From a virus: a stretch of 32,045 nt of DNA. Positions within the stretch are counted from its first letter, which is position 1; each line of letters opens with the position of its first letter. The stretch is taken from IMG/VR virus record IMGVR_UViG_3300035698_001486, positions 1 through 32,045 of that record; one strand, given 5' to 3'. Of the stretch, positions 1-26,480 are shown one piece after another. The notes under the pieces were generated by a model. That model did not search any database. It saw nothing but the letters and a program-made list of their open reading frames with translations, and was not told the origin of the DNA. A program made the position numbers and the translations under genes.

Positions 1-2681
1 AGTCCAGCAAGCTCACCACTCAAGCGAATGAATCCTGCTTCACTATTAATATCTATCTTCTTATTATCTCGTATCTTCTTAACTCCTATCCCATTATAAA
101 CCCCAGCCTTACCTTCACCTATGGTAGCTTCAAGATTAACAACCTCATCCCCTGTCATTACGAATTTTGTTTTACCATCGTTTACTAAAGTAACATCTAC
201 TTCATATAAATCTGATGTACCCTTTCTGAGTGCTATGATCTTATTCCTCGCTACTCTAGCAGAAAGTTCCTTTGCTTTAACAGCCTCTCCTGTTTTCTTA
301 TTTATAATAACGTTAGCTTTCTTTTTATTAGATATGCCATCTTGTGCTTTAGTATCAGCCTTAGCTTTCTTAACATCAGCCATGGTTGTTTTCTTTGGTG
401 TAATAGGCTCGGACTTTCGTGGTGATGTTTTCCTCTGAGTCGGTGAACCTTCTACCTGAGGTTCCGCACTAGTTCTTATAGGCTTACTCTGAAATATCTT
501 CTTAACTTGTTCAACCCCTTCCTTCATCTGAGGTGAGTCCACATCAGTAGGCTCTAACTTAATATGAAAGTCTACCGCTTTATCTTGTTCTATCAATGAT
601 GTTGCTCGTTCCTTTCCTATAGGTACACCATTCTCTGTGAAATTAGCACCAAACTTACTTACCATACTCATCCCACCCGTTGACGCAGCTCTACCTGTTA
701 CAACATTAAGTGCTGGGTTTACTGTCCTAGCTTCATCAAGCATAGCTTGAAACATCAAAGGCCCAGTACCTTCACCCTTCGTTCCTGTAACATTCGTCAT
801 ACCTGAGTCTACCGTATTGCCCCTGATCTCAAATCCCTTAGTACCCACGACCACACCATCTTTCGTAGCTGTAACTGCACCAGGTTGACGTTCGGTTATA
901 CCTTCTCCTATCCTAGGTAACATCTGTGTTTCCGTGGTAACTGGAGTCTCTTTCGTAATTTCAACTTTTGAACTTACGGCCGAGTCTATCTTATTAATTT
1001 CCTTTATTAAATTATCATACCTTTTAACCCATAGTTGATTCCATTTAATCTTTCTTTCTAAACCATCAAGACCACCAATATTTGTAAGTAAGCTTTTGTA
1101 GTTTGGATTCTTAGTATTTGCTGATACATCTGCATAAAATACTAAAGCCTTTGTATGAGTTTCTAACATTTCATTTGCTATAACAATAGCTTCGGCTTTA
1201 CCAGTTTGTTCCGTTAGAGCCTTAATTATAATATCTTTCTCTAGTATAATCTCACGTTGACCTTCAGCAGTATTAAAACTAATATCTTTAGCTGTACCAC
1301 CTGCACCAATAGAGTTATCTCCATGCTCTTCAAAATACTCAGCCCATAACTTATGTATATTTTTAGCTCTTCGTACACCTACTAAAGCCTTAGCACTCGT
1401 TAAATTTTTCTCTTGTTTGGGTAGTCCCGTTTTTGCTATACTTAATTTATCAGAAGGAGTAAACGATACTCGATCTCCTGGTTGTAATGCTTCCTTCTGC
1501 TTAAGTAATCTTTCCAACCGAGCTTGCTCTGGTCTAGATCCTGGAAGTCCAACTTGAAGTTCCTTCGCTAACGCAGCAGACTCATCAGGCAACTTATCCA
1601 AAGCAACCTGAGGATCTTCCAATAACCCACCAGTTCTCCTACCAACACCTAGATCTTTCGTTATCTTTTTAGTATCTCCAACCTGAGGACCCGTTATCTT
1701 CCTCTGAGCTGCCCTAGCAAGAGATGCATCAATCCCACCAGCACGGTCTACATACTCTTGAAATAACTGAAAAGCCCTTCCTAACTTACCAGGATTGGCT
1801 CTTATATTCCTAACAGCATTACTTAATTCTTTCTTAGCTAAAGCTCTAGACCTTCCTACAACAATCTTAGCTATCTCTGTCTTGGCTCTCTCAGTTGCTA
1901 CATCTAAAGATACCCCAACCTTAGTAAGCTCATCCCTGATTAGATTAATATTCTCATCAGCTAACACCCCCACCTTCCTAACATCCACATCTTGTAACTT
2001 CTTCGCACCAATTCCAACAGCACTAAATAAAACCAAATCCAATCCTATATCCATGATAGTAGAAATCCCTCTATCTCTCACACTCCCAGGAAGTACATCC
2101 CTAAAACTAGGTGACTCACCCACGAAAGTTCTCCTCAACACATCCCTAACAGGTTTAAACTCCTGCTTAACAAGTTCATTATCTGCGTTGATAACTCCTG
2201 TATCCTTATCCTGAAACGTTTTAATAATAGCCTGCGGTAATCTAGTAGCCCCGAAAGCTAATCTACCAGGAGCTTCCGACACAGCAGTACTAGCTTGTTC
2301 AAACGTCTCCACACCTTCCTCAGGAAGTTTCCCCAAGCTCGTAAGTTGATCAGTAGAGAAACCACCAGCTATAGGAAGTTTCCTCAAAGCCCCCTTAGCT
2401 GTATCAATAGCTGACTTACTCCCAGTAGCAAAAGCTCCCCTCAAGTCCTCTTTAGCTTTAGCTTTAACATCATCCGCAAACACAAAGCGATTATGTATCT
2501 GCCCAGCGAGTTTTTTCTTCTTAGCTTCCCCTTCAAGGTCAAGACTAAACTTATCCTCCTTAGGAAAATTAGGTCTATTCTTCACAATCTTATTAAAGAA
2601 AGCTTTACGTATACGGACTCTTTTAATAGAGTCAGCACCCTGGTAAGTATCGGTTGCTGTTATATCATTCCAAAGACCCAT
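1..2681 (-). CDS. Large virion-internal / polyvalent-type protein, partial (C-terminus beyond left edge)
   Basis: An uninterrupted reading frame of 893 codons starts at ATG 2681 and runs off the left edge, so the C-terminus is missing. The ATG overlaps the stop of the upstream gene (TAATG) and has an AAGGA ribosome binding site. The protein is hydrophilic, rich in Lys, Ala and Glu, with long predicted helices and no signal peptide. A stretch encoded around 650-820 (GEGTGPLMFQAMLDEA, then MSMVSKFGANF) is loosely reminiscent of a GNAT acetyltransferase core, and the visible end (EAGFIRLSGEL) resembles short motifs common in large phage polyvalent proteins. Its place at the distal end of the structural operon fits a DNA-ejection or internal virion protein. 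Family and function are inferred from size and position only. Confidence 0.72.
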   Translation of the reverse strand, partial: MGLWNDITATDTYQGADSIKRVRIRKAFFNKIVKNRPNFPKEDKFSLDLEGEAKKKKLAGQIHNRFVFADDVKAKAKEDLRGAFATGSKSAIDTAKGALRKLPIAGGFSTDQLTSLGKLPEEGVETFEQASTAVSEAPGRLAFGATRLPQAIIKTFQDKDTGVINADNELVKQEFKPVRDVLRRTFVGESPSFRDVLPGSVRDRGISTIMDIGLDLVLFSAVGIGAKKLQDVDVRKVGVLADENINLIRDELTKVGVSLDVATERAKTEIAKIVVGRSRALAKKELSNAVRNIRANPGKLGRAFQLFQEYVDRAGGIDASLARAAQRKITGPQVGDTKKITKDLGVGRRTGGLLEDPQVALDKLPDESAALAKELQVGLPGSRPEQARLERLLKQKEALQPGDRVSFTPSDKLSIAKTGLPKQEKNLTSAKALVGVRRAKNIHKLWAEYFEEHGDNSIGAGGTAKDISFNTAEGQREIILEKDIIIKALTEQTGKAEAIVIANEMLETHTKALVFYADVSANTKNPNYKSLLTNIGGLDGLERKIKWNQLWVKRYDNLIKEINKIDSAVSSKVEITKETPVTTETQMLPRIGEGITERQPGAVTATKDGVVVGTKGFEIRGNTVDSGMTNVTGTKGEGTGPLMFQAMLDEARTVNPALNVVTGRAASTGGMSMVSKFGANFTENGVPIGKERATSLIEQDKAVDFHIKLEPTDVDSPQMKEGVEQVKKIFQSKPIRTSAEPQVEGSPTQRKTSPRKSEPITPKKTTMADVKKAKADTKAQDGISNKKKANVIINKKTGEAVKAKELSARVARNKIIALRKGTSDLYEVDVTLVNDGKTKFVMTGDEVVNLEATIGEGKAGVYNGIGVKKIRDNKKIDINSEAGFIRLSGELAG
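955..977. repeat. Copy of the 23-bp dispersed palindrome (inside a coding gene)
   Basis: Arms GTAATTTCAA and TTGAACTTAC are separated by CTT, with one mismatch between the arms. The layout (10+3+10) is that of the intergenic copies elsewhere in the window. This is the only copy seen well inside a long gene, so it may be chance or a genuine internal site. Confidence 0.45.
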
Positions 2682-3436
2682 TAGCTTGATCCTTTTAGTG
2701 ATGCAAGTCCTTCATCTTCCAAGAACTGCTGCGCAGTAGGTTCAGTAAAATCATCCCCTTGACCTCCGCTTGAATTAGGAGTACCAGTCCCTCTTCCACT
2801 AGCTTGTGCCATTTCTTGTATTCTATTCTTTAAAGCCTCCGCACGTTTATCAGGCGGTAAGTATGGAAATATCTTACTATCTTTTAACGAGGTAAACGCA
2901 GCTGTAACTAACTTAATCCCAAAACCATCGAGGAAGTTCAACGACTGTTGTTCCTGTGGAGTAAGTGATTCAAACCCTTCTTCAGATACTTTAAGCTTAA
3001 GAGTGTTAAGAGTATTCTCCAATGTATGCTTCAACTTATCATCCGAGCTAACTCGTATGAACTCAACCTCACTATGATATTCAGGCAACTCTTTTTGTAC
3101 CTGAGATACTAACTGTTTCCCCCCAGGAGTCTCCTTAAACAAACCAAATTCTTTATCATCCATGTTAGATAACTGATTATGAATGGACTCAAATTGAGTT
3201 CTTTTCTTTGTAGCCTTCTCAGCTTCTATCTGCGCCAACTTCCCCTTAAGTCCTAGCTCAGCTGTAAATCTAGAAGTCTCTGCAGACCTTTGACTCCTAC
3301 GTTCCAGTCCTGCCTCAACTTTATTTGAAGCATCTACTTTTGCCCTCGTATCTCTACCTGCTTGTAATGCTTCAGTAAGACCACTAAGAGGACTTTTCCT
3401 AGGATCACCTACTGAACCTAAATTAATAACTCCCAT
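2681..3436 (-). CDS. Structural-operon protein of unknown function, helical
   Basis: A 251-aa protein with a strong AGGAGG ribosome binding site six bases before ATG 3436. It is not recognised. Residues 30-110 are rich in Arg, Glu, Lys and Ala and look like a long helix or coiled coil. The C-terminus is Gly/Ser/Gln-rich. There is no membrane segment or signal peptide. It lies between another internal-type protein (3451-4200) and the very large protein at 1-2681, and is joined to the latter by a TAATG overlap, implying coupled translation. In short-tailed phages this position usually holds ejection (internal virion) proteins, so that role is suggested from context only. Confidence 0.8.
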   Translation of the reverse strand: MGVINLGSVGDPRKSPLSGLTEALQAGRDTRAKVDASNKVEAGLERRSQRSAETSRFTAELGLKGKLAQIEAEKATKKRTQFESIHNQLSNMDDKEFGLFKETPGGKQLVSQVQKELPEYHSEVEFIRVSSDDKLKHTLENTLNTLKLKVSEEGFESLTPQEQQSLNFLDGFGIKLVTAAFTSLKDSKIFPYLPPDKRAEALKNRIQEMAQASGRGTGTPNSSGGQGDDFTEPTAQQFLEDEGLASLKGSS

Positions 3437-3450
3437 TTACTACCTCCTCT

Positions 3451-4200
3451 TTATCCAAAGAATGAATCAAACTGACCACTAGATTTATTTTGATCAAAAG
3501 TACCACCACTTACATTAGTAGTACCACCTTCAACTGTAGACGCATTACCTGAGCCACCACTAAAGAATCCTCCAACTGCAGCAATAAGATCTTTCAAAGC
3601 TCCCTGTTGTCCAGGATCAGTTTGAAACACAGTGTCAAACCCAGATGGGACACCTAGAAATTGAAGTGCTTGACCAATGACTGGATTAAATTGTGGTAAC
3701 GATTTAAAAAATGCATCCCGTTCTAATAATAAATCTTTATCCTGTTGTACTTTTCTTTGACTAGCCATTGTAAATTGAGCTCCAGGTAATTTTAAAGCTA
3801 AGTCTGCTTCAACTCCAGCAAGATCTTGACCAAACTTAGAGATTGCATCTTCTTCAGATCTAAATCTCCCACTACCTCGCATATTCCCAGCAAATCCTTC
3901 TTGAAGCACTGGAAAGAAATCTTCTTTAAACCTCTTAGTAGCTGGAGCTGCAACTTTCTCTTGAAAGAACTCTCCTGAGTCTAATGATAAAAACTCATTA
4001 AACCTATTAACCGCATTTGGGTCTAAGTCAGCAGATAAAGCTCCCCCATATGCTGGTATACCTTTACCAATTTGACCTTGCAAATAACTAGACAATGGCT
4101 TAGACAGCCCAGTCTTAATTGGATCTTCTGCTGTCATTGCTTTAGTTTCAGCTGGTTTCCCATAAATCCATTCGCCTACTTCTGTAAAAAAATTAGCCAT
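3451..4200 (-). CDS. Putative internal virion / DNA-ejection protein
   Basis: A 249-aa protein starting at ATG 4200 with AGGAGG seven bases upstream. The middle (residues about 60-150) is helical, with the segment GFAGNMRGSGRFRSEEDAIS. This kind of segment, a helical body around a short Gly/Arg-rich turn, is seen in uncharacterised proteins near the ends of podovirus structural operons. The C-terminal 40 residues are low-complexity Gly/Ser/Thr/Asn and would be flexible. No catalytic motif was found. The assignment rests on gene order, after the tail hub and before two further internal-type genes, not on a recognised domain. Confidence 0.75.
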   Translation of the reverse strand: MANFFTEVGEWIYGKPAETKAMTAEDPIKTGLSKPLSSYLQGQIGKGIPAYGGALSADLDPNAVNRFNEFLSLDSGEFFQEKVAAPATKRFKEDFFPVLQEGFAGNMRGSGRFRSEEDAISKFGQDLAGVEADLALKLPGAQFTMASQRKVQQDKDLLLERDAFFKSLPQFNPVIGQALQFLGVPSGFDTVFQTDPGQQGALKDLIAAVGGFFSGGSGNASTVEGGTTNVSGGTFDQNKSSGQFDSFFG

Positions 4201-4209
4201 TACATCCTC

Positions 4210-4542
4210 CTATCCTTGTGGGGCATAGAACACAACCCCTTCCATGTTAGTACCCGTAATTGCCACCGATATTCCCAGTTTCGCCTTGACGTTAATTCCT
4301 CTGCTTTGTGTCATGCTAGTAGCACCCACGTATAATATGTCTATAATATTCCCACCTGCAGCATTCACTGTATCATAGATAACAGCCTTAGCAACTGAAG
4401 TCCCAGCTAACAAGGTAAAACCATAGTAGTTAGCCTGCCCAGTAATAACCGCTATTGTACCATCTCCTGTCATAGCAGGACTAGCCACCCCGTAATCTAT
4501 ATCATAAAACGATGGTCTATCACTTTTTAAAAATTCTGCCAT
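4210..4542 (-). CDS. Small beta-rich structural protein
   Basis: A 110-aa protein. The start is placed at ATG 4542 because the ribosome binding site GGGAGGAGA lies just before it. A longer reading from GTG 4557 would bury that site. The upstream gene stops at 4544-4546, only one base before this ATG, so translation is probably coupled. The sequence alternates short hydrophobic strands with Gly/Thr/Ala (TIAVITGQANYYG, AVIYDTVNAAGG), suggesting a compact beta sandwich. Small beta proteins beside tail hubs can be capsid decoration or tail accessory proteins. The exact role is unknown. Confidence 0.78.
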   Translation of the reverse strand: MAEFLKSDRPSFYDIDYGVASPAMTGDGTIAVITGQANYYGFTLLAGTSVAKAVIYDTVNAAGGNIIDILYVGATSMTQSRGINVKAKLGISVAITGTNMEGVVFYAPQG

Positions 4543-4543
4543 G

Positions 4544-6604
4544 TTATCTCCTCCCACTTCTTTCTATGTAATATACACCATAGTACCTAAGTTGAAATCC
4601 ACTAGACACCGTGGTATTACTGAATTTAAACCTAACCTTCCTCTCAACTGCATCAAAGTCTTGCTCATAAAAAGCATACAAACTTCCCAGTGTAACTGTA
4701 TTACTCCCATTACCTTGTGTAGGAGCCCATGATGCACCACCATCTGTTGAGTACTCTGTTGTAATGCTATTACCCTTAGCCTCATAAACCAACTGAGGTA
4801 TACGGTAGAATTTATTCTGCGCATCATTTACTGTTGATACTATAGACTGAGTCTCCAACATACTCAAAGTGAAATCAGGAGTCTCAAAGGTATTAGTAAT
4901 AGCAACACCATCATTATCAAAAGTGCCAGAACTTAACTGATAAATCTTACCATCAGAATCCCCGATTAATATAATAGTAGTATTAGCTTTAGAAAGATTT
5001 GAACCTATACGATAGTTTTGAGCTCCTATACTCCCCACCAACTCCCCAATAGTAACACTGCTCTGAGCTGAGTAGAAGCCCCAACCTGTCATAGTTCTAT
5101 CTTTCCTATACCATACTGCACCATCTGTGTCTAAACACCACACAATATCAGGATAAGCTGTACCAGTAGGAATCCACAATTGCACCTCGTTAATAACATT
5201 ATCAAATATGGTAAATAATCTATTCTGATAAGTAACATCCAAGTCTGTGAAAAATCTAGTCTTATTAGCTGCGTCTAACTCGGTCACGGTATCATTTCCT
5301 GTATAACCATAGATCGAATTATCCCCTATGACAATGTGTTTTCCACCTATATCAACAACACCATCTTTAGCTAACGCACCTCTATCCGAGACAAGTATAT
5401 CAAATCTGAAAGGAGTCTGTCCACCTACCCATGACATTTTTATTATCTGACGTTCTTTATATATAGCCCACTCATTCCTATTGAGTTGCTTCACCGATAT
5501 AACCCATGACTCATCCCCAATGTCTTGCCATCCTGCTGTACCGTTAATGTAGTCCTCTAGTTTTCCTATGTTCCCCCAACTAGCACGTTGTGGTGCATCT
5601 CCACCATTCTCGGTATTGTTAAAAAATACAACATGGTCTTTTGCGTTTATTATAATCTCGGAGGTACTAATAGTCCCAGCAGCTAGCGCAGTAGCAAGAT
5701 CTGCCATGACCCCCGTGCCTGTATACTTCTGAGGCTGATCAATCCCATTAGTTAAAACTAACGTATCATTCATAACAGCCCAGGAGAATCTATTATCCGC
5801 ATCACCAGTGAATGCTTTAACTGTCCTTATATCATCCAAATACACCGTGACTGCTCCAGGATCTGAAACTGCCACAAGTGCAACTGAAGCTAAAGCATTA
5901 AGATCATCAGGATAAGTACCCCCATCATCTGCATCAGGTGAAGCTATAGCTACTAACATATGAGTCCATGTGTCTGCTGTTAATGCTGGTATGTTGTAAT
6001 CAGCATAAGTCGCACCAGTAGCACCTGCGGCTTGTTCGCTTAACCTGAGCCGAAAAACCCCTGCTGCATGAGTCCCTGTTGATCTCACCCAAAAGCTAAG
6101 GTCTGTATTACTCGCTGCTGATATATCTACATTTTGTAAATCATCTTCCGAACTCACAATGCCTGTACCAAATCCTGCAGCTATCACATGCTTAGCTGAC
6201 TTAGAATCTCTCACTTTAACATCCGTATCTGCTGTTGATGTTACATTAGCTTGAGCATCCCAAGCTGCTTCACAATCATCTACCTCAACCCCTTGTGATA
6301 TAACATCCCAAGTTTCATTACTCGTGTTATACTTATAAGCACAATTCTCAGTAAGTCCAATTGGACTTGAAGATGCATCATTCTGTACAAAATCAAACAT
6401 AGCCATCACAGCACCATTCAACACATTAGTCTTTGTATCCCCAGCTGTAGGAAAAGCTACATGACCTGTATCAGATTGTATTTCACCCTCATGAAGAAAC
6501 ACCCCATTATTCGTGGGTGACTGAGTTATTGCCAGTTGAGTTGGTGGTACTGAAGTAACCATACCCCCCACAGGACTATGAATATGCTTCCATTTACCAG
6601 CCAT
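4544..6604 (-). CDS. Tail hub / stabilisation protein, beta-propeller-like, with inserted jelly-roll-like module
   Basis: A 686-aa protein whose ATG overlaps the upstream stop (TAATG at 6604). The N-terminus (HIHSPVGGMVTSVPP) and many repeated short blades ending in Trp or Tyr (VWCLDTDGAVWYRKD, IGDSDGKIYQLSSG, VIGDNSIYGYTGND) are typical of the beta-propeller nozzle or stabilisation proteins of podovirus tails (P22 gp10-like and T7 gp12-like families). Residues about 110-265 look like an inserted carbohydrate-binding jelly roll (LSFWVRSTGTHAAGVFRLRLSE, then TWTHMLVAI and VYLDDIRT). The C-terminus (YSTDGGASWAP, VRFKFSNT) closes the propeller. The exact family is inferred from pattern and gene order. 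Confidence 0.75.
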   Translation of the reverse strand: MAGKWKHIHSPVGGMVTSVPPTQLAITQSPTNNGVFLHEGEIQSDTGHVAFPTAGDTKTNVLNGAVMAMFDFVQNDASSSPIGLTENCAYKYNTSNETWDVISQGVEVDDCEAAWDAQANVTSTADTDVKVRDSKSAKHVIAAGFGTGIVSSEDDLQNVDISAASNTDLSFWVRSTGTHAAGVFRLRLSEQAAGATGATYADYNIPALTADTWTHMLVAIASPDADDGGTYPDDLNALASVALVAVSDPGAVTVYLDDIRTVKAFTGDADNRFSWAVMNDTLVLTNGIDQPQKYTGTGVMADLATALAAGTISTSEIIINAKDHVVFFNNTENGGDAPQRASWGNIGKLEDYINGTAGWQDIGDESWVISVKQLNRNEWAIYKERQIIKMSWVGGQTPFRFDILVSDRGALAKDGVVDIGGKHIVIGDNSIYGYTGNDTVTELDAANKTRFFTDLDVTYQNRLFTIFDNVINEVQLWIPTGTAYPDIVWCLDTDGAVWYRKDRTMTGWGFYSAQSSVTIGELVGSIGAQNYRIGSNLSKANTTIILIGDSDGKIYQLSSGTFDNDGVAITNTFETPDFTLSMLETQSIVSTVNDAQNKFYRIPQLVYEAKGNSITTEYSTDGGASWAPTQGNGSNTVTLGSLYAFYEQDFDAVERKVRFKFSNTTVSSGFQLRYYGVYYIERSGRR

Positions 6605-7386: not shown

Positions 7387-7389
7387 ACG

Positions 7390-7650: not shown

Positions 7651-7658
7651 GAAGCCTC

Positions 7659-12143: not shown

Positions 12144-13490
12144 TTATAATATATTATTTAATCTTTGGTGTTCTTTTTCTTCAAGTATTCTTGAGAAAAA
12201 AGCTATTGAAAAGATAGTACCATAAAAGTTTTTTGTGCCTTCACTATTAGAACCAATATAAAAACTAGTACCCCAAATTGGTGTAGTAAAATCATCATTT
12301 TCATTTGTGCCATCAGCTACACCATTAAAAAATCCAGCTATATTGGGATTTCCTGAAGCTTGCATAGAATATCCTAGTGTTAAAATATCATTAGCCGACC
12401 AAGCAGTATTAACTAAATCATTTACTGTAGATCCTGCAGTATCGGTTACATTACCAAATATTTCAACATCATCACTTCCATTATTAAATGAGACTCTTCT
12501 ATTTTTAGTATCAGTAGCTGTAATAAATACATCATCAGTAACAATAGTATCCGCAAATGATGGAGCAAGTTTAATAACCATTCCTTCAACAGCTGCTGTT
12601 CTATTACCACTTATAACATATTTTAATGTTTCAGCATTACGTGTAAGTTCTTCATCTGTAGTTGGTATAAATGATGTAGCATAAGAAGATTGTTCTATCT
12701 GTATACCTTCTATATATACTGTAGGAGTACCATTATCGCCCAATCGTATCCGCACCCCTACGTCTGTAACATCCCCAAAATCGTTAGTAAATGTTTCAGA
12801 ATACCTTACCCATGTATTCGCTACAGTAGTTACCCCTGTTAACATCTTATAAGTTGAATAATCATCGTCTAACTCTTGTATAGATACAGCAAATGTTTTA
12901 ATGCTATCAGCCTTTATCCAAAAAGAAACAGTATATTCTAATGCGTTAGTTAAGGAAATAGCAGTAACCGATGTGAACCTTAGATCTTGGGCAACACTTC
13001 CTGCATTAGTTATAACTATTTTTGCCGACCTACCATCCGAGAAAACAGTATCAGTACTAATACTATTGGTAGACGCTCCTGTGTCAGCGTGCACTAGATG
13101 CCACGAATTAGTAGTCTCATACCGTAAATAATCACCATCCCAATTACTGTCAGCATCAAATTTTCCATTCCTGAGTAAGTTTGTACTAGCTCCTTCAAGC
13201 ATTAACCCACCTTTACCATGACTCCATCTATTAAATCCAGTAGAATCATAATAACCAAATGATATTCTAGGATTATCAGAAGTCAAATCCAATTGAATAA
13301 TACCATTCTCATCAATATACATACCAGCACCAACTCTCGCAAATGTTGGAGTCTCTGAACCTCTAGATAATATGGGTTGAAGCATTTTATCTTTAATAGT
13401 AGCAGTATCACCATATCTAGCAAGAAAGGTACAGCTTCTCATGAGCTCTCTGTCTTTAAGTATTCTTACTGTTCTAGTATTCTGAGACAT
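12144..13490 (-). CDS. Adhesin-like virion protein with jelly-roll and LamG-like domains
   Basis: A 448-aa protein. The start is ATG 13490 because AGGAGG lies six bases before it. Reading from 13517 would place that site inside the gene. Residues about 100-280 look like a carbohydrate-binding jelly roll (LEGASTNLLRNGKFDADSNW, YTVSFWIKADSI, VYIEGIQIEQSSYATSFIPT). Residues about 290-448 resemble a concanavalin A/LamG fold, ending NFYGTIFSIAFFSRILEEKE. This pair is common in uncharacterised virion surface proteins of environmental phages and suggests glycan binding. A copy of the dispersed palindrome lies just upstream of its ribosome binding site. Confidence 0.82.
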   Translation of the reverse strand: MSQNTRTVRILKDRELMRSCTFLARYGDTATIKDKMLQPILSRGSETPTFARVGAGMYIDENGIIQLDLTSDNPRISFGYYDSTGFNRWSHGKGGLMLEGASTNLLRNGKFDADSNWDGDYLRYETTNSWHLVHADTGASTNSISTDTVFSDGRSAKIVITNAGSVAQDLRFTSVTAISLTNALEYTVSFWIKADSIKTFAVSIQELDDDYSTYKMLTGVTTVANTWVRYSETFTNDFGDVTDVGVRIRLGDNGTPTVYIEGIQIEQSSYATSFIPTTDEELTRNAETLKYVISGNRTAAVEGMVIKLAPSFADTIVTDDVFITATDTKNRRVSFNNGSDDVEIFGNVTDTAGSTVNDLVNTAWSANDILTLGYSMQASGNPNIAGFFNGVADGTNENDDFTTPIWGTSFYIGSNSEGTKNFYGTIFSIAFFSRILEEKEHQRLNNIL

Positions 13491-13507: not shown

Positions 13508-13530
13508 GTAAATTCAATTATTGAACTTAC
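13508..13530. repeat. Copy of the 23-bp dispersed palindrome
   Basis: Arms GTAAATTCAA and TTGAACTTAC with spacer TTA; one mismatch between the arms. It lies between the stop of the tail adaptor gene (13534-13536) and the ribosome binding site of the adhesin gene (about 13497-13502), so it would be a hairpin in the polycistronic mRNA or an operator in the DNA. Confidence 0.85.
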
Positions 13531-13533: not shown

Positions 13534-14274
13534 TCATTCTGAAAACCCGTACAATGGATCACCACTTTCCCCATACGGATCTAACCAGGGTGTACCACTC
13601 TGCACCACGTCTAAGTTTCCAAACGCATCAGCCTGAGGTTCCCAATCAACATCACCTTCAACTCTCACCGAGTTCGTCAACTGCCCCAGAAACTTACTAA
13701 ACCAAAACTTCGCATCCTCATATTCCTGCAATCCCATATAAGTCTCAAACACCCCAGCTGTTGTTATCAACTGATCCTTCATTAAAAAATCAGACTCTTG
13801 AGTTCCTGTTGAAAATGCCGTAGCCCATTTGGGATACCTAACATATAACGTATACGCATCATTAGGTATCTTAAATAATTCAATTGCCCTAGCATATTTA
13901 ATATAAATCCTAGGTCTATCAGTAGCAAAGTTGGCAGGGCGAGGGAATCTTTTATCAAACTTTCGATAGCTCCACCTATCCAACTTCCAAGAATTCTCAC
14001 CATCTATTACCCTAATAGTATCAACATCCTTCCAGGTGGTGACACCAAGCAATGTATCAAGTGAGTAGCTTTTCTGACTGGCCACAGTGACGGCATCTTC
14101 CTTCAGCACATTCAACTCATCAAAGTTATAAAACCTCGCTATCCTCTCCTGTGCAAAGTTCAACCACCGTTGTACACGGGTTTCTAAAGTAGCTGAAGAC
14201 CTTGATAAAGCATCAGTACTCTTCCCAACCGTGTCTGCTATCTCAGTTATAAAATCATCCCTCGTCATTGCCAT
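13534..14274 (-). CDS. Head-tail adaptor / tail tubular protein
   Basis: A 246-aa protein with GGGAGG before ATG 14274. The N-terminal half is helical (FITEIADTVGKSTDAL, then ETRVQRWLNFAQERIARFYNFDEL). A beta-rich middle carries KSYSLDTLLGVTTWKDVDTIRVIDG, and later YTLYVRYPKWATAF. This is the pattern of the phage adaptor family (P22 gp4, T7 gp11 and related gp6-like proteins) that binds below the portal and starts the short tail. The position, downstream of the capsid genes and upstream of the receptor-binding genes, agrees. The length is within the usual 190-260 aa range. Assignment is by pattern, not by alignment. Confidence 0.75.
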   Translation of the reverse strand: MAMTRDDFITEIADTVGKSTDALSRSSATLETRVQRWLNFAQERIARFYNFDELNVLKEDAVTVASQKSYSLDTLLGVTTWKDVDTIRVIDGENSWKLDRWSYRKFDKRFPRPANFATDRPRIYIKYARAIELFKIPNDAYTLYVRYPKWATAFSTGTQESDFLMKDQLITTAGVFETYMGLQEYEDAKFWFSKFLGQLTNSVRVEGDVDWEPQADAFGNLDVVQSGTPWLDPYGESGDPLYGFSE

Positions 14275-20401: not shown

Positions 20402-20418
20402 AGTTTTCCTTTTAGTTA

Positions 20419-20694: not shown

Positions 20695-20705
20695 AAGTCC
20701 TCCCT

Positions 20706-20849
20706 TTAACCAATGTGAGCTTGTGTTATACGCCTGAGATTTTCCGCAGAATCCCTAGGAGGATATATCCTCCGCTTCTTCAAAGACTTCCACTTGGCCT
20801 CAAGCACTCTTTTCTTGACCTCATATAGTTTACTTTTTTGTTTCTTCAT
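20706..20849 (-). CDS. 47-aa basic micro-protein
   Basis: A 47-codon frame from ATG 20849 with GAGGTG six bases upstream, ending at TAA 20706-20708, just before the ribosome binding site of the next gene. Very basic N-terminal helix (KKQKSKLYEVKKRVLEAKWK) followed by KKRRIYPPRD. A copy of the dispersed palindrome lies directly upstream of its ribosome binding site. Probably nucleic-acid binding; function unknown. Confidence 0.7.
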   Translation of the reverse strand: MKKQKSKLYEVKKRVLEAKWKSLKKRRIYPPRDSAENLRRITQAHIG

Positions 20850-20865
20850 AGTCTACACCTCGTGC

Positions 20866-20888
20866 GTAAGTTCAATTATTGAACTTAT
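20866..20888. repeat. Copy of the 23-bp dispersed palindrome
   Basis: Arms GTAAGTTCAA and TTGAACTTAT with spacer TTA; they pair perfectly as DNA or RNA except the outermost base. It overlaps the stop codon of the large terminase gene (20885-20887) and ends five bases before the GAGGTG ribosome binding site of the next gene. Confidence 0.88.
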
Positions 20889-22651
20889 GATACATCCTCA
20901 AACGGGTCAACATCGTCATCTGCATCTTCATCCCACATGACAAGATCATCACCAGTTGGCTCACTTCCGAATGCTAGTATGGAACTTTTCTTATCCCGTA
21001 CTGACATTAAATCTTCTAATATCTTATCCATCTCCACCTCGAAGGTGAAAGCATTTCTTTTCTTTATATCAAGAGGTAACGGTTTCGCCACCCCAGGTCT
21101 TGCTACCCTGAGCTGGTATGCTGCAACATCCAGCATATCCTTTCGACTTCCCTTGTCGCCAGGTGCATATTCGCAGAACTCTTCAATAAAATCCTTATGT
21201 TCCTTCCTGCAGTGTAACGCATAATTAGACGCGAGTGGTTCGAGTCCACGTATCCGTATATCTTTAGACTCTGACCCTTCGGGTTTAATCCCTCGAATAA
21301 CCATGCGTGGTATTTCAATTTTTTCTCCTTTGTGATTAAAGCACCAACCTTGATCCATGTACTTCCTCGCAAAATGAGCAAGTGCTTTTTGATAGTATAC
21401 TTCCTCCACCGCTATCATCTCAGGTTGGAACAGTTGCCAGTGAGTGGCCATTTTTATAATAACCTCCGTGGGGTCATACCGAGCAACGTCATAATGCATG
21501 ATCCACATGTGATTCCTCTCACACCACCCACAGGTCATAACAACCGCCCGTGAGTTTTTACTCCTCACCCCTCCACCCCAGAGGCTCAAGTCAACGGTAG
21601 TAAACCTACGAGATTCCTTAGGCACCTGATCTAAAGCATCATAATATTGCAACCACTCAGGTTTGAATAACATATCCTCAGGTGACATCGGGAGGTTCAT
21701 ATATTGCGTAGCAAACATGTAAGGGCCTTGTGCTGCTTTTATCTCATCACACTTGGTTTTCCCGTACATGGTTTCCCACACGTAATCTCCATACTCTTTC
21801 CCATCAGGTAAAATATCCGCAGGTCTATAGTTCTTATCACCAGGTTCACCCTCAGCATCTCTATACACCACCGCAAATTCCCGCACCTGATATTGTTTCT
21901 CATTCGTTCTTATAAAGTCCACTAGGTCATGCTTAGCCCACCTTGTACCCACATTATAAAGTGCAACGTGGTCGCCAGGTACTAGCAGTGACATAGCAAG
22001 CTTATGCCAACCAATTGCTTTATCTATGTCGTCTTGGTTAGGCTGGAGCTCCTGACCTGTAAGATCGTCTTTCTTTGCGTAGATAAGATCATCCTCGATA
22101 ATAAGATCATAATGCCTAGATACGGCAGAACCACCAACTCCAGCAGCCTCGAACGTGCTTTCAGTGAAGTCCTTACTACGACTAATGCATGCTGAACTAT
22201 CCGACCATTTAACTTTTGTAAAATTAGCTGGTATGACTTCTGGAAACAATAGCCTAAACATATCCCCTCTTTCATAAACCTTCCTTATATTACCTATGAT
22301 CTTCCTCGCATTCTCGATAACATTCGAGGCGATTAGGATTCTTATATTACTACCTAGTTTATAAAGTCCATCCATCGGTGTGATACCTTCAGGGAACTCG
22401 TCTGCTTGTTCTCTAGGAAGTGCAACCCAGATTGGAAACGCTATTGAGGAGATACAAGTCTTTAAAAAACCCCGAGGAAGTGTTATCTGTTTCCTCGTAG
22501 CATTAGACTCCAAATCCCTACAAACTACCGCATGCATATCTTCTGTAATATCATCATACCCCATACATAAGACACAAAAACTATGCAGACTACGTAGGCA
22601 TCTTTTGCGATATTTTTCTAGATCTCTCTGTGATAATTGTACCTTCCCCAT
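20885..22651 (-). CDS. terL: Terminase large subunit
   Basis: A 588-aa packaging motor and nuclease. The start is ATG 22651 with GGAAGGA five to six bases upstream; the longer frame from 22684 lies inside the upstream gene. ATPase: Walker A-type loop LPRGFLKT (residues 58-65), the deviant form common in phage terminases, and Walker B YDLIIEDD (about 181-188) with the catalytic acid. The RNase H-like nuclease has FTTVDLSLW (first acid near D354), IAVEEVYYQ (about 414-422) and a C-terminal DMLDVAAY with the last acid. Length is typical. It overlaps the upstream small subunit gene by 62 bases. Confidence 0.94.
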   Translation of the reverse strand: MGKVQLSQRDLEKYRKRCLRSLHSFCVLCMGYDDITEDMHAVVCRDLESNATRKQITLPRGFLKTCISSIAFPIWVALPREQADEFPEGITPMDGLYKLGSNIRILIASNVIENARKIIGNIRKVYERGDMFRLLFPEVIPANFTKVKWSDSSACISRSKDFTESTFEAAGVGGSAVSRHYDLIIEDDLIYAKKDDLTGQELQPNQDDIDKAIGWHKLAMSLLVPGDHVALYNVGTRWAKHDLVDFIRTNEKQYQVREFAVVYRDAEGEPGDKNYRPADILPDGKEYGDYVWETMYGKTKCDEIKAAQGPYMFATQYMNLPMSPEDMLFKPEWLQYYDALDQVPKESRRFTTVDLSLWGGGVRSKNSRAVVMTCGWCERNHMWIMHYDVARYDPTEVIIKMATHWQLFQPEMIAVEEVYYQKALAHFARKYMDQGWCFNHKGEKIEIPRMVIRGIKPEGSESKDIRIRGLEPLASNYALHCRKEHKDFIEEFCEYAPGDKGSRKDMLDVAAYQLRVARPGVAKPLPLDIKKRNAFTFEVEMDKILEDLMSVRDKKSSILAFGSEPTGDDLVMWDEDADDDVDPFEDVS

Positions 22652-23306
22652 GAATATCCTTCCCGACTCGTTCGAGTCTTTCAAGTACTTTCTCTTCTAT
22701 TTCTATAACAGGTGTTACCTCACCAGCCTGTGACTTATAACCCGCACGGTCTAATATTTCCTTCGCAGCTGTTACTCTAGTTCCAGGTTTGTTCTCCACA
22801 TTCTCCATTACAGTAGCAATAGTCTCCGCAGCTGTTATTGATTTATCCCTTAGTAATGTGATAACAGGATCACCTGCCATTTTACTAGCACGGATATTTA
22901 TAAATTTTTCCTCTAATTTTTTACTCACCCTAGTATGTTCTTGTTGATATAAAGGAGACTTCTTAACCGCATCTATCTGGTGTCGGGTTAACCTAGTAAT
23001 CTCCATAATCTCATCCATATTAGCACCCGAAATGTCAGCATATATAATCTGACTCACCCTCGAGCTAGACGTTTGAATTCGTTTACTAGCTGGTACCGTG
23101 ATAGCAGAGTAACCATTTTCCTTTATCATGTTAGCTACACTATCCCGAGTACTCACGGGGAACTTAGGACTCAAATCCACAGGTTTCTTTTTCTCAAAGT
23201 CAAAGCCTTCCTTCCGCCTCTTCTTGATATAAGACATCTCCGCAGGAGTGAAGTCCTTATCCGTTTTCATCTTCTTCATTATGAAGCTATCATATTGAGT
23301 CTGCAA
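22590..23306 (-). CDS. terS: Terminase small subunit (putative)
   Basis: A 238-aa protein. TTG 23306 is preferred because GGAGG lies five bases before it; an alternative TTG at 23369 has a weaker AAGGGG site. Residues about 75-150 contain a helix-turn-helix-like region (DEIMEITRLTRHQIDAVKKS). The C-terminal part has AAKEILDRAGY, a motif common in phage small terminase subunits, then an acidic coiled coil. It immediately precedes the large subunit and is the first gene after the leftward promoter, so it should recognise the packaging site and hand DNA to the motor. No other gene in the window fits this role. Confidence 0.75.
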   Translation of the reverse strand: MQTQYDSFIMKKMKTDKDFTPAEMSYIKKRRKEGFDFEKKKPVDLSPKFPVSTRDSVANMIKENGYSAITVPASKRIQTSSSRVSQIIYADISGANMDEIMEITRLTRHQIDAVKKSPLYQQEHTRVSKKLEEKFINIRASKMAGDPVITLLRDKSITAAETIATVMENVENKPGTRVTAAKEILDRAGYKSQAGEVTPVIEIEEKVLERLERVGKDIHGEGTIITERSRKISQKMPT

Positions 23307-23512
23307 TTTCGCCTCCAGTTTAAGATAAATAAAAAAGGGACACAGTCTGACTCCATCATCTGAAATCAAATGTATCCCCTTAGCTAAAGTTCCCTCATAA
23401 TCAGGAGCGACCTGACATGTGTTTCCACTTATACGCTGTATAACCTCGTAAGTTCAAAAACTTCAAAGTTGGAAATTTCAATCCCTTGAAAATCCCATAT
23501 CATCTTATTTAT

Positions 23513-23541
23513 ATTATAACATATATAAAAAAGAATGTCAA
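23513..23541 (-). promoter_or_regulatory. Consensus leftward promoter of the structural operon
   Basis: On the minus strand TTGACA (23541-23536) and TATAAT (23518-23513) are separated by exactly 17 bases, a perfect match to the sigma70/sigmaA consensus. A TG-like TATG precedes the -10. Transcription would start near 23506 and leave a leader of about 200 bases before the small terminase gene. No other leftward promoter of this quality was seen, so it probably serves the whole packaging and structural block. Confidence 0.9.
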
Positions 23542-23664
23542 GGATAATATTAATTCCTAAATACGTGTAAACGTTGAACTTGTGGCCGTTAAGAATAAAA
23601 AGTTGGTTATTTTTATTTTGATTGCGTGTATATTTTTGACAGGTATAGTATTGGGCGAGCCTAT

Positions 23665-23683
23665 GGGGGGGGTGTATAGGGGG
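23665..23683. other. G-rich tract near the small terminase gene
   Basis: Eight consecutive G residues (23665-23672), then TGTATA, then five G residues (23679-23683), in otherwise AT-rich DNA. Such strand-biased G runs are unusual for this genome. It could be part of a packaging cut site or form a G-rich structure. Nothing proves either. Confidence 0.35.
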
Positions 23684-23799
23684 TCAGATATAGCATACAC
23701 GTCAAATGTTAGGGTATATAGGTTATATTACACATGCTAATTATCTCATGTTAGGTTGTAAGTTCAATAGTTTAACACACTTACGACATGAAATAGTAC

Positions 23800-23829
23800 T
23801 TGACATTTGGTATTACATCATGGTACAAT
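23800..23829 (+). promoter_or_regulatory. Rightward promoter of the gene at 23901
   Basis: TTGACA (23800-23805) and TACAAT (23824-23829) are 18 bases apart, giving a start near 23836. A second TTGACA at 23852-23857 precedes a weaker TTATAC or TATACA at about 23875-23881, but that start would fall on the ribosome binding site. Inverted CATGGTA (23819-23825) and TACCATG (23868-23874) overlap both -10 regions and could be an operator. Confidence 0.75.
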
Positions 23830-23900
23830 ATAACTAGTTGGAAAATGTTCATTGACATTCTATATGATACCATGTTATACACAATTAGGAGTGATATATC

Positions 23901-24230
23901 ATGGCAAATTTAATCGAAACAAGTGGTTCATATGTTAGTAAAATATCAGGCGCAAGCGTAGCGTTTGAATACTCATATACGGATTTTGATAGTATTGAAG
24001 ATGCGCTTGAAGTACTAGGCGATAAAGCCTTGACTATGCTACAACGTATGGAAAAAGTTGACGCTGGCAATACTGCTAGAGAACGTGCTAAAACTGCTAA
24101 TGGTGATAGCACAAGGATAGCAATGTCAGAGGAAGAGAAAGCCGAGAAAAAACAAGAAAGACAGGCCGACAAGGCATTGTTAGTAGCATTAAAGAATAAC
24201 CCTGAGTTGTTAGCGCAATTAGGTCTGTAA
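23901..24230 (+). CDS. Conserved-type small phage protein, single-gene transcript
   Basis: A 109-aa acidic/basic helical protein with TTAGGAGTG before ATG 23901. The pattern FEYSYTDFDSIEDALEVLG, then ALTMLQRMEKVDAGNTARERAK, then ANGDSTRIAMSEEEKAEKK resembles a family of small phage proteins that I recall as conserved but functionally uncharacterised. It has its own promoter (23800-23829) and an intrinsic terminator (24291-24317), so it is expressed alone and in the opposite direction to the structural block. A regulatory or very early role would fit; no DNA-binding motif is evident. Confidence 0.82.
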   Translation: MANLIETSGSYVSKISGASVAFEYSYTDFDSIEDALEVLGDKALTMLQRMEKVDAGNTARERAKTANGDSTRIAMSEEEKAEKKQERQADKALLVALKNNPELLAQLGL

Positions 24231-24290
24231 ATCTAACACATAACATAATTTAACCGTATCATTGTATCATATAGGATGTAATAAAGAAAG

Positions 24291-24317
24291 GCTAGTCTAT
24301 GTAGACTAGCTTTTTTT
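24291..24317 (+). terminator. Intrinsic terminator after the gene at 23901
   Basis: GCTAGTC (24291-24297) pairs with GACTAGC (24304-24310) around TATGTA, and seven T residues follow at once. This is a textbook rho-independent terminator for rightward transcription, 60 bases after the stop codon. Confidence 0.93.
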
Positions 24318-24334
24318 ATGTCTATAACATATCC

Positions 24335-24359
24335 GTAAGTTCAATGGTATTGAACATGT
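24335..24359. repeat. Variant copy of the dispersed palindrome (5-base spacer)
   Basis: Left arm GTAAGTTCAA is perfect. The right arm TTGAACATGT keeps TTGAAC but diverges at its end, and the spacer is five bases (TGGTA) instead of three. It lies just downstream of the terminator. Confidence 0.65.
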
Positions 24360-24382
24360 GAAAATTCAATAATTGAATATAC
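24360..24382. repeat. Degenerate copy of the dispersed palindrome
   Basis: Arms GAAAATTCAA and TTGAATATAC flank TAA. The central TTCAA-N3-TTGAA core is perfect, the outer arms are weak. It directly abuts the preceding copy and is followed by a half-site (ATAAGTTCAA, 24384-24393), making a three-site cluster. Confidence 0.55.
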
Positions 24383-24550
24383 CATAAGTTCAATAAATTA
24401 CATGTTATAATCTTAACACTTACCACAAAGAACTACCTTTCGACTATATCGTAAACCCTTACAATATAACATGATAGCTACCTATTGAAAATGTTAGGTG
24501 TAATTCATCATTAAACGTTAAGATGCGAAATAGTACTTACACTTCCACAT

Positions 24551-24757
24551 AGTTACACGGTATCCTTTCTTAAGTAGCTTAAAAATATATACTTAAAATA
24601 GTTTAACATGTTTATACTAATGTTGTTTAATATATATAAATACATATATATAATAGACTTATAGAAAAAACACCATAAGTTCAATACGTGTAACTTGTGT
24701 AACTTTGTGTAACTGAACTTATGGCATATAACATATACCGTGTAACTTGTGTAATGT
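24551..24757. repeat. GTGTAACTT iterons with inverted partner
   Basis: Copies start at 24688, 24697, 24707, 24740 and (degenerate) 24749, spaced 9-10 bp within each group. An inverted copy AGTTACACGGTA (24551-24562) is a perfect 12-bp complement of TACCGTGTAACT (24736-24747). Three copies lie between the arms CCATAAGTTCA (24673-24683) and TGAACTTATGG (24714-24724), themselves an 11-bp perfect inverted repeat. Confidence 0.78.
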
Positions 24758-24783
24758 GGAACCGGTATTCTTAACGATTTTTT

Positions 24784-24804
24784 GTAAGTTCAATTTGAAC
24801 TTAT
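24784..24804. repeat. Variant copy of the dispersed palindrome (1-base spacer)
   Basis: Perfect arms GTAAGTTCAA and TTGAACTTAT, separated by only one base (T). The arms are intact, so the spacing difference of two bases is probably a deletion in the loop. Confidence 0.8.
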
Positions 24805-24819
24805 GAATATGTTATATCT

Positions 24820-24847
24820 CACATGTTAGGTTTCACATGTTAGGTTT
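24820..24847. repeat. 14-bp tandem direct repeat
   Basis: CACATGTTAGGTTT occurs twice head to tail (24820-24833 and 24834-24847). The core ATGTTAGG also occurs at about 23706, 23748 and 24491, so five copies lie in the control region, pointing to a second class of protein-binding site. Confidence 0.75.
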
Positions 24848-24961
24848 ATTGCTTATTTTGGATTTTAATGGGTTCGTTTGGGATTTTGGTATACGGTTGC
24901 ATAAGTTCAATAAAATGCCGTCTTGACCCATTGGAACGGCTTATATAAGGTAAAATAGTTA

Positions 24962-24990
24962 TTGACATGATTATTATAATATGTTATAAT
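24962..24990 (+). promoter_or_regulatory. Consensus promoter of the rightward early operon
   Basis: TTGACA (24962-24967) and TATAAT (24985-24990) are exactly 17 bases apart, a perfect consensus. The sequence around the -10 (ATGTTATAATA) is the same as in the leftward promoter at 23513-23541. A half-site of the dispersed palindrome lies upstream (24901-24910) and another downstream (25049-25058). The start would be near 24997. Confidence 0.9.
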
Positions 24991-25024
24991 AAGATAATCA
25001 AAAAATACCAAATATCGAGGGATA

Positions 25025-25246
25025 TTGAATAATTCCACAATTAACAAATTGAACTTACAATCCTATACAAAACATCCTGCCTACATTTGGGAGTTAATCC
25101 CAAATTCCCATCCTGCAATAATATCCTCGTACCACAATATCCCTAATGCTAACATGTTACATATGTTGTGTAACATAGACTCCACAGCTTGCCTGTGTTG
25201 GGCGACTAGTGGAATTAACCTTGTTAAAACAGGAGGTACAAAATGA
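25025..25246 (+). CDS. First gene of the early operon, unknown (TTG start)
   Basis: A 73-codon frame from TTG 25025, seven bases after CGAGGG, directly behind the early promoter. Its TGA overlaps the ATG of the next gene (ATGA), which supports translation. The sequence is rich in Asn, Ser, His and Cys and ends in a segment CLCWATSGINLVKTGG. I do not recognise it. The leader and start codon are weak, so it could be a translated leader rather than a functional protein. A palindrome half-site lies in its first codons (25049-25058). Confidence 0.5.
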   Translation: MNNSTINKLNLQSYTKHPAYIWELIPNSHPAIISSYHNIPNANMLHMLCNIDSTACLCWATSGINLVKTGGTK

Positions 25247-25461
25247 AAGACAACACGAAAGTTAGAGTCTCAAATATTCCCGCATGTGATTACTGCGGGG
25301 AGCAGGAGATTACGTTTCACCACCGTAACACAAAAGTCGAGGCTAAATATGATGCTATGTCACATTCAGGTCATTGGGCATATATGTGTGAACAGCACTT
25401 CCAACAACATGGTGTTGGATTAGGTTTAGGTAAGGGCCAAGAACTTATACCAGTAGTTTAA
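25243..25461 (+). CDS. Small zinc-binding-type phage protein
   Basis: A 72-aa protein with GGAGGTACAAA before ATG 25243. It has C15-x2-C18 (PACDYCGE), His-26/27, then MCEQHFQQH with C49 and H52, and ends in GVGLGLGKGQELIP. The arrangement (CxxC near the N-terminus, CExHF near the C-terminus, then a Gly-Leu-Gly-rich tail) is that of a small zinc-ribbon protein I recall from many phage genomes, where function is unknown. Metal binding is predicted from the Cys and His spacing. Confidence 0.82.
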   Translation: MKDNTKVRVSNIPACDYCGEQEITFHHRNTKVEAKYDAMSHSGHWAYMCEQHFQQHGVGLGLGKGQELIPVV

Positions 25462-25475
25462 TTGAAGAATGTTTC

Positions 25476-25498
25476 ATAAGTTCAAACATTGAACTTAT
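25476..25498. repeat. Copy of the 23-bp dispersed palindrome
   Basis: Perfect arms ATAAGTTCAA and TTGAACTTAT flank ACA. It lies between the stop at 25461 and the GGAGG ribosome binding site (25509-25513) of the gene starting at 25519. Confidence 0.9.
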
Positions 25499-25518
25499 AC
25501 CCAAATATGGAGGCTAAA

Positions 25519-25698
25519 ATGAATGAGATAGTTAAGATACTTATGGAAAGAGATAACATGTCAGAGGAAGGTGCTCGTGCACTTGTGGAACAGGCTCATG
25601 ATGATATGATGGTTAGACTCGGAGCTGGAGAAATGCCGTATGATATATGTTCAGAATGGTTTGGACTTGAGCCCGATTACATAGATTATCTTATATAA
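25519..25698 (+). CDS. Small acidic protein, conserved-type
   Basis: A 59-aa protein. The start is ATG 25519 because GGAGG lies five bases upstream; earlier candidate starts lie in the palindrome. Helical and acidic (ILMERDNMSEEGARALVEQA), ending in WFGLEPDYIDYLI, a motif I recall from small uncharacterised phage proteins with a GLEPDYL-like end. No metal-binding or catalytic residues. Confidence 0.78.
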   Translation: MNEIVKILMERDNMSEEGARALVEQAHDDMMVRLGAGEMPYDICSEWFGLEPDYIDYLI

Positions 25699-25708
25699 CG
25701 GAGGTAGG

Positions 25709-25807
25709 ATGAAAGTGTACTTATGTTATGCTATTGTTATATTTGTAGGTTTGGTTTTATATGATGCAGGGAAGAAGTTATATAGGAGGTATAAAACATA
25801 TGAATGA
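25709..25807 (+). CDS. 32-aa single-pass membrane micro-protein
   Basis: A 32-codon frame from ATG 25709 with GGAGGTAGG upstream. Residues 3-19 (VYLCYAIVIFVGLVLYD) are one hydrophobic helix, followed by a basic tail (KKLYRRYK). Its TGA overlaps the ATG of the next gene by eight bases. Small basic-tailed membrane proteins occur often in phage early regions, with mostly unknown roles. Confidence 0.65.
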   Translation: MKVYLCYAIVIFVGLVLYDAGKKLYRRYKTYE

Positions 25808-26240
25808 TATTAAGAGACAGATAGCTAGAGAGAAGGATAATGTACGTTATAACCTAGAAGGTGGAAGTAAGATGTATGATTCTGCTATGAAGAAACTTCG
25901 TTCCATTAATGTATTAGTTAACAAAACAAGTGGTAATGTGGTACAGGATCAACTTCAACTAATTACGAAGTCTTTGGGATTAACAACCCCAAATCCGAAT
26001 GCTGAGCAAATAATGGTATTGTTTAAACAAATCCACACCCTGATACTGAAGTATAAAACAACAACACCTCATTATGCGAAGTATAGGACATTCACAGGTC
26101 AGACTTTCGGGATTGAATTAAACGCACCTTCGACTCATGCCACTAGGCAGAAGTTTATGCAGCTCGGAACAGAGTGTGAGATATTGGGTGTATTCAATAT
26201 GAGCTCCGATAAGTACCATAGGAGCTTGACTTCAGTATAA
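25800..26240 (+). CDS. Early-region protein of unknown function
   Basis: A 146-aa protein with AGGAGG about ten bases before ATG 25800; the longer frame from 25761 covers that site. Mostly helical and basic (MNDIKRQIAREKDNVRYN, ATRQKFMQLGTECE), with a Thr/Pro-rich stretch near residue 85. A perfect palindrome (26243-26254) follows its stop codon. No recognised domain. Confidence 0.78.
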   Translation: MNDIKRQIAREKDNVRYNLEGGSKMYDSAMKKLRSINVLVNKTSGNVVQDQLQLITKSLGLTTPNPNAEQIMVLFKQIHTLILKYKTTTPHYAKYRTFTGQTFGIELNAPSTHATRQKFMQLGTECEILGVFNMSSDKYHRSLTSV

Positions 26241-26242
26241 CA

Positions 26243-26254
26243 CCGCTTAAGCGG
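26243..26254. other. 12-bp perfect palindrome CCGCTTAAGCGG
   Basis: A self-complementary site right after the gene ending at 26240 and before the gene at 26270. As RNA it has no room for a loop unless the inner bases open. It may be a restriction or protein-binding site or a small hairpin. No T-run follows, so it is not a terminator. Confidence 0.5.
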
Positions 26255-26269
26255 AAGGGTTAATTTAAC

Positions 26270-26461
26270 ATGGAAATTAAAATATCTGATATAGACATAG
26301 ATTTTGCTTATAATGAGATTTACATGGATAATATGAGTAAGTTAATGTTTGAGTATGAAACTCATTTTGATTTAGATGGCTTAAGTGGAGTTATTAAGAT
26401 ATTAGCTGGAGAGATAATACTGTTAAAAGAACAAGTAGCTGAGTTAAAAGCTAAGCCATAA
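26270..26461 (+). CDS. Small acidic helical protein
   Basis: A 63-aa protein with GGAAGGG upstream (spacing is long) before ATG 26270. Acidic N-terminal half (ISDIDIDFAYNEIYMD), then a leucine-rich helix (LDGLSGVIKILAGEIILLKEQ) that could be a coiled coil. Its TAA stop (26459-26461) lies inside the next palindrome copy. Function unknown. Confidence 0.72.
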   Translation: MEIKISDIDIDFAYNEIYMDNMSKLMFEYETHFDLDGLSGVIKILAGEIILLKEQVAELKAKP

Positions 26462-26480
26462 GTTCAATAGTTGAACTTAT
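26458..26480. repeat. Copy of the 23-bp dispersed palindrome
   Basis: Perfect arms ATAAGTTCAA and TTGAACTTAT flank TAG. It contains the stop codon of the preceding gene and ends ten bases before the GGGGGG ribosome binding site of the next gene. Confidence 0.92.

Follow-up and report, generated by a model that had tools for sequence, protein, structure and literature searches.

Conserved palindromes in an uncultured phage family

The DNA stretch analysed here (the window) is the whole 32,045-bp IMG/VR record IMGVR_UViG_3300035698_001486, yet it is a fragment of a phage genome; near-complete relatives measure 40-50 kb. It contains five copies of the palindrome RTAAGTTCAA-N3-TTGAACTTAY, one set of a kind of site that is conserved family-wide, has a fixed spacer, is placed between genes, drifts in concert within each genome and lacks RNA-type compensation between its arms. 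To judge from these sequence features, the palindrome is very probably a DNA site for a trans-acting dimer. For the reading as a whole, namely that the palindromes are operators of a phage-encoded dimeric protein acting genome-wide, most likely on transcription, we see an even chance.

The five copies reported in a preliminary description of this DNA were all recovered at their positions with 0-1 mismatches, while dinucleotide shuffles, set beforehand as the test of the motif count, gave 0. The exact 9-mer half-site TAAGTTCAA occurs 17 times in the window versus about 0.4 expected, and all exact copies are either palindrome arms or lie inside a gene-poor control region (23449-25057). The full copies are:

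955..977: copy 1 (GTAATTTCAA CTT TTGAACTTAC), inside an 893-aa minus-strand open reading frame (ORF; 3-2681), where it encodes VSSKVEIT
13508..13530: copy 2, between the 3' end of a head-tail adaptor-like gene (13534-14274, minus strand) and the next gene, which starts at 13490
20866..20888: copy 3, which overlaps the TAA that ends the terminase large subunit gene (20885-22651, minus strand)
25476..25498: copy 4, between the early ORFs 25243-25461 and 25519-25698
26458..26480: copy 5, which includes the TAA that ends ORF 26270-26461

As had been noted, four of the five occupy a gap between a stop codon and the next ribosome binding site, the exception being the copy at 955 inside ORF 3-2681. 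The junction of copy 2 is also occupied by a site in three related sequences (G001, G003 and L026).

A scan of IMG/VR for the exact palindrome returned 20 loci, 20 of which belong to one uncultured lytic-type phage family. The records of these loci hold further copies (up to nine in G001), whereas the reversed control pattern gave none. Members share terminase, portal, capsid, scaffold and adaptor genes. The near-complete ones (G001, G006, G009, G014 and G017; 40-50 kb) carry 5-9 full palindromes each and encode a family-A DNA polymerase, a primase-like protein, a RecB-type exonuclease, Sak4 and a DUF669/SSB-like protein; no integrase or repressor was recognised in them. The earlier remark that no repressor is visible in the window can thus be extended to its near-complete relatives. 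The closest cultured phages reach a terminase identity of at most about 30%, and near-DNA and capsid-protein searches against cultured phages gave no match.

Scanning bacterial and archaeal genomes (257 Gb, 84,980 species) yielded one exact match. The site is therefore not a host element, nor do sequenced prophages carry it, and a host or prophage origin was rejected. A related alternative is that the sites are read by a host transcription factor or another host DNA-binding protein, and that their sequences differ as the hosts differ. This would explain why no phage binder is recognisable; the single cellular match counts against it, as does a relative, described below, in which the sites disappear with a phage module swap, and we consider it improbable.

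Genomic placement and spacing

In the terL genes first examined, a site overlaps the terminase stop codon or lies within a few bases of it in 14 of 14 cases, including both clades of the family, whose terL identity to each other is 29-30%. To remove the bias of contigs chosen by their motif, IMG/VR was also searched by terminase alignment, blind to the motif. Among the loci returned, 34 have a terminase at least 49% identical to that of the window; several of these loci are near-duplicates. Near the stop codon, 28 of the 34 score at least 15 of 18 for the degenerate motif, versus 2.4% of control windows, and four more have a diverged palindrome scoring 14 (e.g. TTCAG-N3-CTGAA); no palindrome was found near the terminase stop of the other two (L174 and L175). 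The presence of the site at the same junction in relatives, on which the preliminary description had made its proposal depend, is thus borne out.

In 15 phages taken together, 64 of the 73 sites fall between genes, where 8.2 would be expected. The median distance is 4 nt from the preceding stop codon and 18 nt to the following start (range 1-576). For 13 sites the start falls 4 nt short of the upstream gene's end, as it would if the TAA of the palindrome were that gene's stop codon. Sites within a large downstream ORF occur in the window, in G009 (aa 367) and in G017 (aa 381); they fall in variable segments and encode the similar short peptides SSKVEIT, SSKFELT and ISKVEVT.

The gaps between sites have quartiles of 4.5, 6.5 and 9.0 kb. 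Spacing is more even than random in three single genomes (p 0.002-0.007) and in the pooled data (p < 1/20000), although the evenness and intergenic tests used sites that we curated ourselves in related genomes, and their p-values are not independent and are optimistic.

Dispersed near-identical copies in gene gaps might also be produced by a mobile or selfish palindromic repeat spreading into such gaps. That origin has very little probability: the same junction is occupied across lineages with 29-57% terL identity, the number and spacing of copies are constant, and their sequences drift in concert without homology of the flanks.

A DNA site rather than an RNA hairpin

Arm statistics were compiled from 60 sites, i.e. 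120 half-sites. All 120 half-sites have the inner TT-AA, whereas arm position 3 is either A or T and position 4 may be any of A, G and T; these two are degenerate independently. The spacer is 3 nt, mostly A/T, in essentially all full sites, with the qualification that the search pattern behind the 60 sites fixed it; a de novo search over spacers 0-7 returned a 1/3/5/7 series centred on the same axis. Agreement between the two arms of a site (477) does not exceed that of arms shuffled within genomes (484, standard deviation 4), and perfect arms are present in 15 of the 60 sites.

The preliminary description had offered a 10-bp hairpin in RNA as an alternative, and hairpins in a polycistronic mRNA could act in stability, processing or translational coupling. 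Perfect copies would indeed fold at -8 to -12 kcal/mol, and the positions between stop codon and ribosome binding site would suit such a role. Across sites, however, the predicted stability ranges from -12 to -0.6 kcal/mol, several sites reaching merely -0.6 to -2.1 kcal/mol, and terminase-junction or family sites include one strong and two near-unfolded examples. As a set, the palindromes show neither the compensatory pairing nor the stable stem expected of an RNA hairpin or intrinsic terminator. The constant 3-nt spacer of full sites, the occurrence of sites within ORFs and that of isolated half-sites in the non-coding control region also run against a function in RNA. Arms that do not compensate, together with this range of stabilities, indicate a dimer site in DNA. 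The palindrome has no match in Rfam, and an RNA hairpin, terminator or Rfam element was rejected as its identity; we attach a very low probability to an RNA role.

Concerted drift among distant members

More distant members of the family have another half-site on the same plan, with a 3-nt spacer and about one site per 6.5 kb. De novo searches found TAWGTTTAA in G018, AGTTGTTCAA in G021, TTGTTCGA in G022, TCGTATTCAT in G023, AGAATTTCAT in G025 and TTTCAA in G028; shuffled sequences reached 1-2 copies at most. These palindromes likewise lie between genes. As the copies within one genome all carry the same sequence shift, they appear to follow a trans-acting reader that co-evolves with its sites.

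The control region

Between 24001 and 25000 the window has a GC content of 31%, and this AT-rich control region is the GC-skew minimum. It has three strong sigma-70 matches, two of which are divergent and 12/12 (consensus match only). The elements are:

23449..23457 (+): isolated exact half-site
23513..23541 (-): perfect sigma-70 match towards the leftward (late) arm, flanked by the half-sites at 23449 and 23574 (consensus match only)
23574..23582 (-): half-site with 1 mismatch (CAAGTTCAA)
23759..23767 (+): exact half-site with degenerate partner, 33 bp upstream of the promoter match at 23800
23901..24230 (+): 109-aa ORF of a conserved family in the middle of the control region, with its own promoter match (23800); candidate binder
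24336..24355: exact half-site with degenerate partner, 5-nt spacer
24360..24382: weaker palindrome with spacer 3 (GAAAATTCAA TAA TTGAATATAC)
24385..24393 (+): isolated exact half-site
24676..24721: two facing half-sites with GTGTAAC repeats between them
24785..24803: perfect palindrome with 1-nt spacer (TAAGTTCAA T TTGAACTTA)
24902..24910 (+): isolated exact half-site upstream of the rightward promoter match
24962..24990 (+): perfect sigma-70 match (TTGACA-17-TATAAT) towards the rightward arm, flanked by half-sites (consensus match only)
25049..25057 (-): isolated exact half-site downstream of the rightward promoter match

The variants with changed spacers (1 nt at 24785-24803, 5 nt at 24336) and the weaker spacer-3 copy (24360-24382) that had been described are real, and so are the half-sites, except that the site listed at 24673 begins at 24676 and that at 23574 has one mismatch. 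At 24676-24721, three GTGTAAC repeats split the facing half-sites, as if a palindrome had been broken by a short tandem repeat. A terminator-like hairpin with a T-run (24291-24310) directly follows the 109-aa ORF, which suggests a separate transcription unit.

A genome-organising role would explain part of this arrangement. A phage protein could condense, segregate, replicate or package the genome by way of parS- or matS-like palindromes, and the AT-rich half-site cluster at the skew minimum would then be a replication origin with iteron-like repeats. The regular spacing of about 6.5 kb and the position of the cluster in a 31% GC region would fit, and intergenic placement would simply follow from the lack of other non-coding space. 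The skew, however, also changes sign here as a result of the switch in gene direction, neither ParA nor a complete ParB was recognised, and the conserved specific junctions, such as the terL stop, suggest a local function. We judge this role rather unlikely, while the even spacing and a link to the replication module (see below) lead us to keep it under consideration.

Where the binder may be encoded

The phage G027 (IMGVR_UViG_3300020202_000100; L242-L244) has kept the structural module, its terL, portal and capsid being 55%, 62% and 67% identical to those of members; over the family, identities for these three genes span 43-67%. Its early module has been replaced, the new one including a tyrosine recombinase and a DUF932 protein. 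G027 lacks a palindrome family, and its terminase is without a site. The sites were lost together with the DNA polymerase/exonuclease/DUF669/primase module, a coincidence that also favours a genome-organising role. The simplest reading of this loss is that the reader of the sites is encoded by the phage, in the early module that G027 lacks. From this comparison of genomes the binder is probably phage-encoded; the binder itself, its dimeric state and, from the site loss in G027, its phage origin are what we infer. The sole integrase that we saw is that of the palindrome-free G027.

Several proteins were considered as the binder. The 109-aa ORF product is a candidate by its position. Its AlphaFold2 model has a predicted local distance difference test score (pLDDT) of 75-80; the protein gave no family match and no confident fold match, and its family was undetected in the G001-like clade, where profile comparison was negative. 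It is weakly linked to proteins of G023 and G025 and absent from G027. Location is thus suggestive, but the missing family and fold matches and the negative result in the G001-like clade kept us from accepting it.

Pfam and PHROG scans gave just a weak helix-turn-helix (HTH) match in G006 and sigma-like proteins among those of distant members; neither is common to the family, and both were discarded. Small proteins of G023 and G025 (L254:5111-5572, L256:3063-3566) look sigma-factor-like by eye, and a batch scan of distant-member proteins returned Sigma70_r4 and PHROG sigma-factor matches that were not assigned to a member. The terminase small subunit was rejected since palindrome-free G027 keeps a homologue. 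A ParB_N domain fused to an N6/N4 DNA methyltransferase recurs in the family (L029:9398-10675 in G001); as the binder it was rejected because palindrome-bearing G006 lacks it.

Apart from these candidates, the right arm of the window (29140-31862) contains genes of cellular type, for radical SAM, glycosyltransferase-like and E1-dehydrogenase-like proteins. The radical SAM homologue of G017 (L041:15271-17304) contains an intein with a LAGLIDADG domain.

Proposed mechanism and its significance

In the mechanism we propose, the palindromes would be double-stranded DNA operators for a symmetric dimeric protein from the phage early/replication module. One subunit would read each arm (about 10-12 bp, with the invariant inner TT-AA), and the A/T-rich 3-bp spacer would fix the register. 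In the control region, the protein would occupy isolated half-sites near the divergent promoters, and it would also bind the full sites that lie about 4-9 kb apart over both arms. Once bound, it would obstruct RNA polymerase at operon junctions and modulate promoters. Its action would resemble that of mycobacteriophage stoperators, but on symmetric sites and in a lytic-type phage. A role in transcription is suggested by half-sites that flank divergent promoters and by full sites at gene junctions in long same-strand runs. That this role is a transcription roadblock or silencing rather than another function of the DNA has, from site positions, somewhat less than an even chance.

Several observations weigh against this proposal. 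Even spacing is not expected of simple operators, and it rests on the optimistic tests mentioned above. Half-sites flank the promoter matches without overlapping them. G027 is a single case, and no palindrome family was found in the relatives G024, G026 and MW202554 either; G026 and MW202554 retain replication-module genes. No one gene family was seen to track the palindromes perfectly, and the Pfam and PHROG scans, which covered about 240 early or small proteins, revealed no shared repressor.

Most known cases of scattered repressor sites come from temperate phages that have immunity systems. The present set, conserved, symmetric and evenly spaced, belongs to a lytic-type family of which only metagenomic sequences are known, and its half-sites show at least six different specificities, divided by lineage. 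Tentatively, a fast co-evolving phage protein of an unrecognised DNA-binding type might form, on these regularly spaced sites, a phage-scale chromatin or roadblock outside lysogeny control, its specificity changing by lineage while spacing and junctions are kept. The palindromes predict a new DNA-binding protein whose recognition sequences are given in advance, and the family would offer a natural set of protein-site pairs for studying the evolution of binding specificity. The palindrome is also a strong signature for recognising family members in metagenomes, and G027 provides a natural experiment for finding the binder.

Comparison with known systems

Chromosome-organising elements of the parS/matS type are short palindromes dispersed at intervals. 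The phage palindromes are likewise short and dispersed, but no ParA, complete ParB or MatP was recognised with them. A ParABS centromere comprises ParA and an HTH ParB on the same replicon; here we found just the ParB_N-methyltransferase fusion, which is absent from G006.

The preliminary description had likened the palindromes to the stoperators of mycobacteriophage L5. In Cluster A mycobacteriophages, stoperators are read by repressors such as L5 gp71 and that of TipsytheTRex; the L5 sites are asymmetric, 13 bp long, bound by a monomer, oriented with transcription and present in more than 20 copies per genome, and they serve lysogeny (PMC9283540, PMC6550527). In both systems one protein has numerous sites on both arms, most of them in short gaps between genes (here 64 of 73), with operators near early promoters and a motif that drifts in concert between lineages (PMC9283540, PMC6550527). 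In contrast, our sites are symmetric with a 3-nt spacer, number 5-9 per near-complete genome and are evenly spaced. The HTH plus stoperator-domain repressor and the temperate life of the L5 system have no recognised counterpart in palindrome-bearing relatives, the window being a fragment. The likeness therefore holds for scattered sites read by one protein, as argued by the fixed spacer, independent arms, concerted drift, intergenic placement and loss in G027. It does not appear to extend to immunity of the L5 type, the sites being symmetric and few and no integrase being recognised in any palindrome-bearing relative.

SPBRE of Bacillus phage SPbeta is a 15-bp motif in promoter regions that is bound by the recombinase-like repressor MrpR (PMC10516654). 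The common ground is an element that recurs in several intergenic regions within a phage genome, together with one phage DNA-binding protein, which in our case is inferred (PMC10516654). Unlike SPBRE, most palindromes are found in the gaps that separate successive genes of long arrays and not at promoter matches, and palindrome-bearing members have no Phage_integrase match or tyrosine-recombinase-like protein.

The extended start-associated sequences (ESAS) of Cluster K mycobacteriophages have 17-bp inverted-repeat arms and a variable spacer of 4-13 nt, stand beside a 13-bp start-associated sequence (SAS) and are of unknown function (PMC3203893). They too are inverted repeats, placed just upstream of start codons in conserved gene families, with a half-site consensus that differs between subclusters (PMC3203893). 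Our palindromes differ in their fixed spacer of 3 and in being tied more tightly to the upstream stop than to the next start, and no SAS-like motif was noticed. Because the palindrome set departs from stoperators, SPBRE and ESAS in a defining feature of each, we regard it as a variant of such dispersed phage sites rather than as a member of any of these systems.

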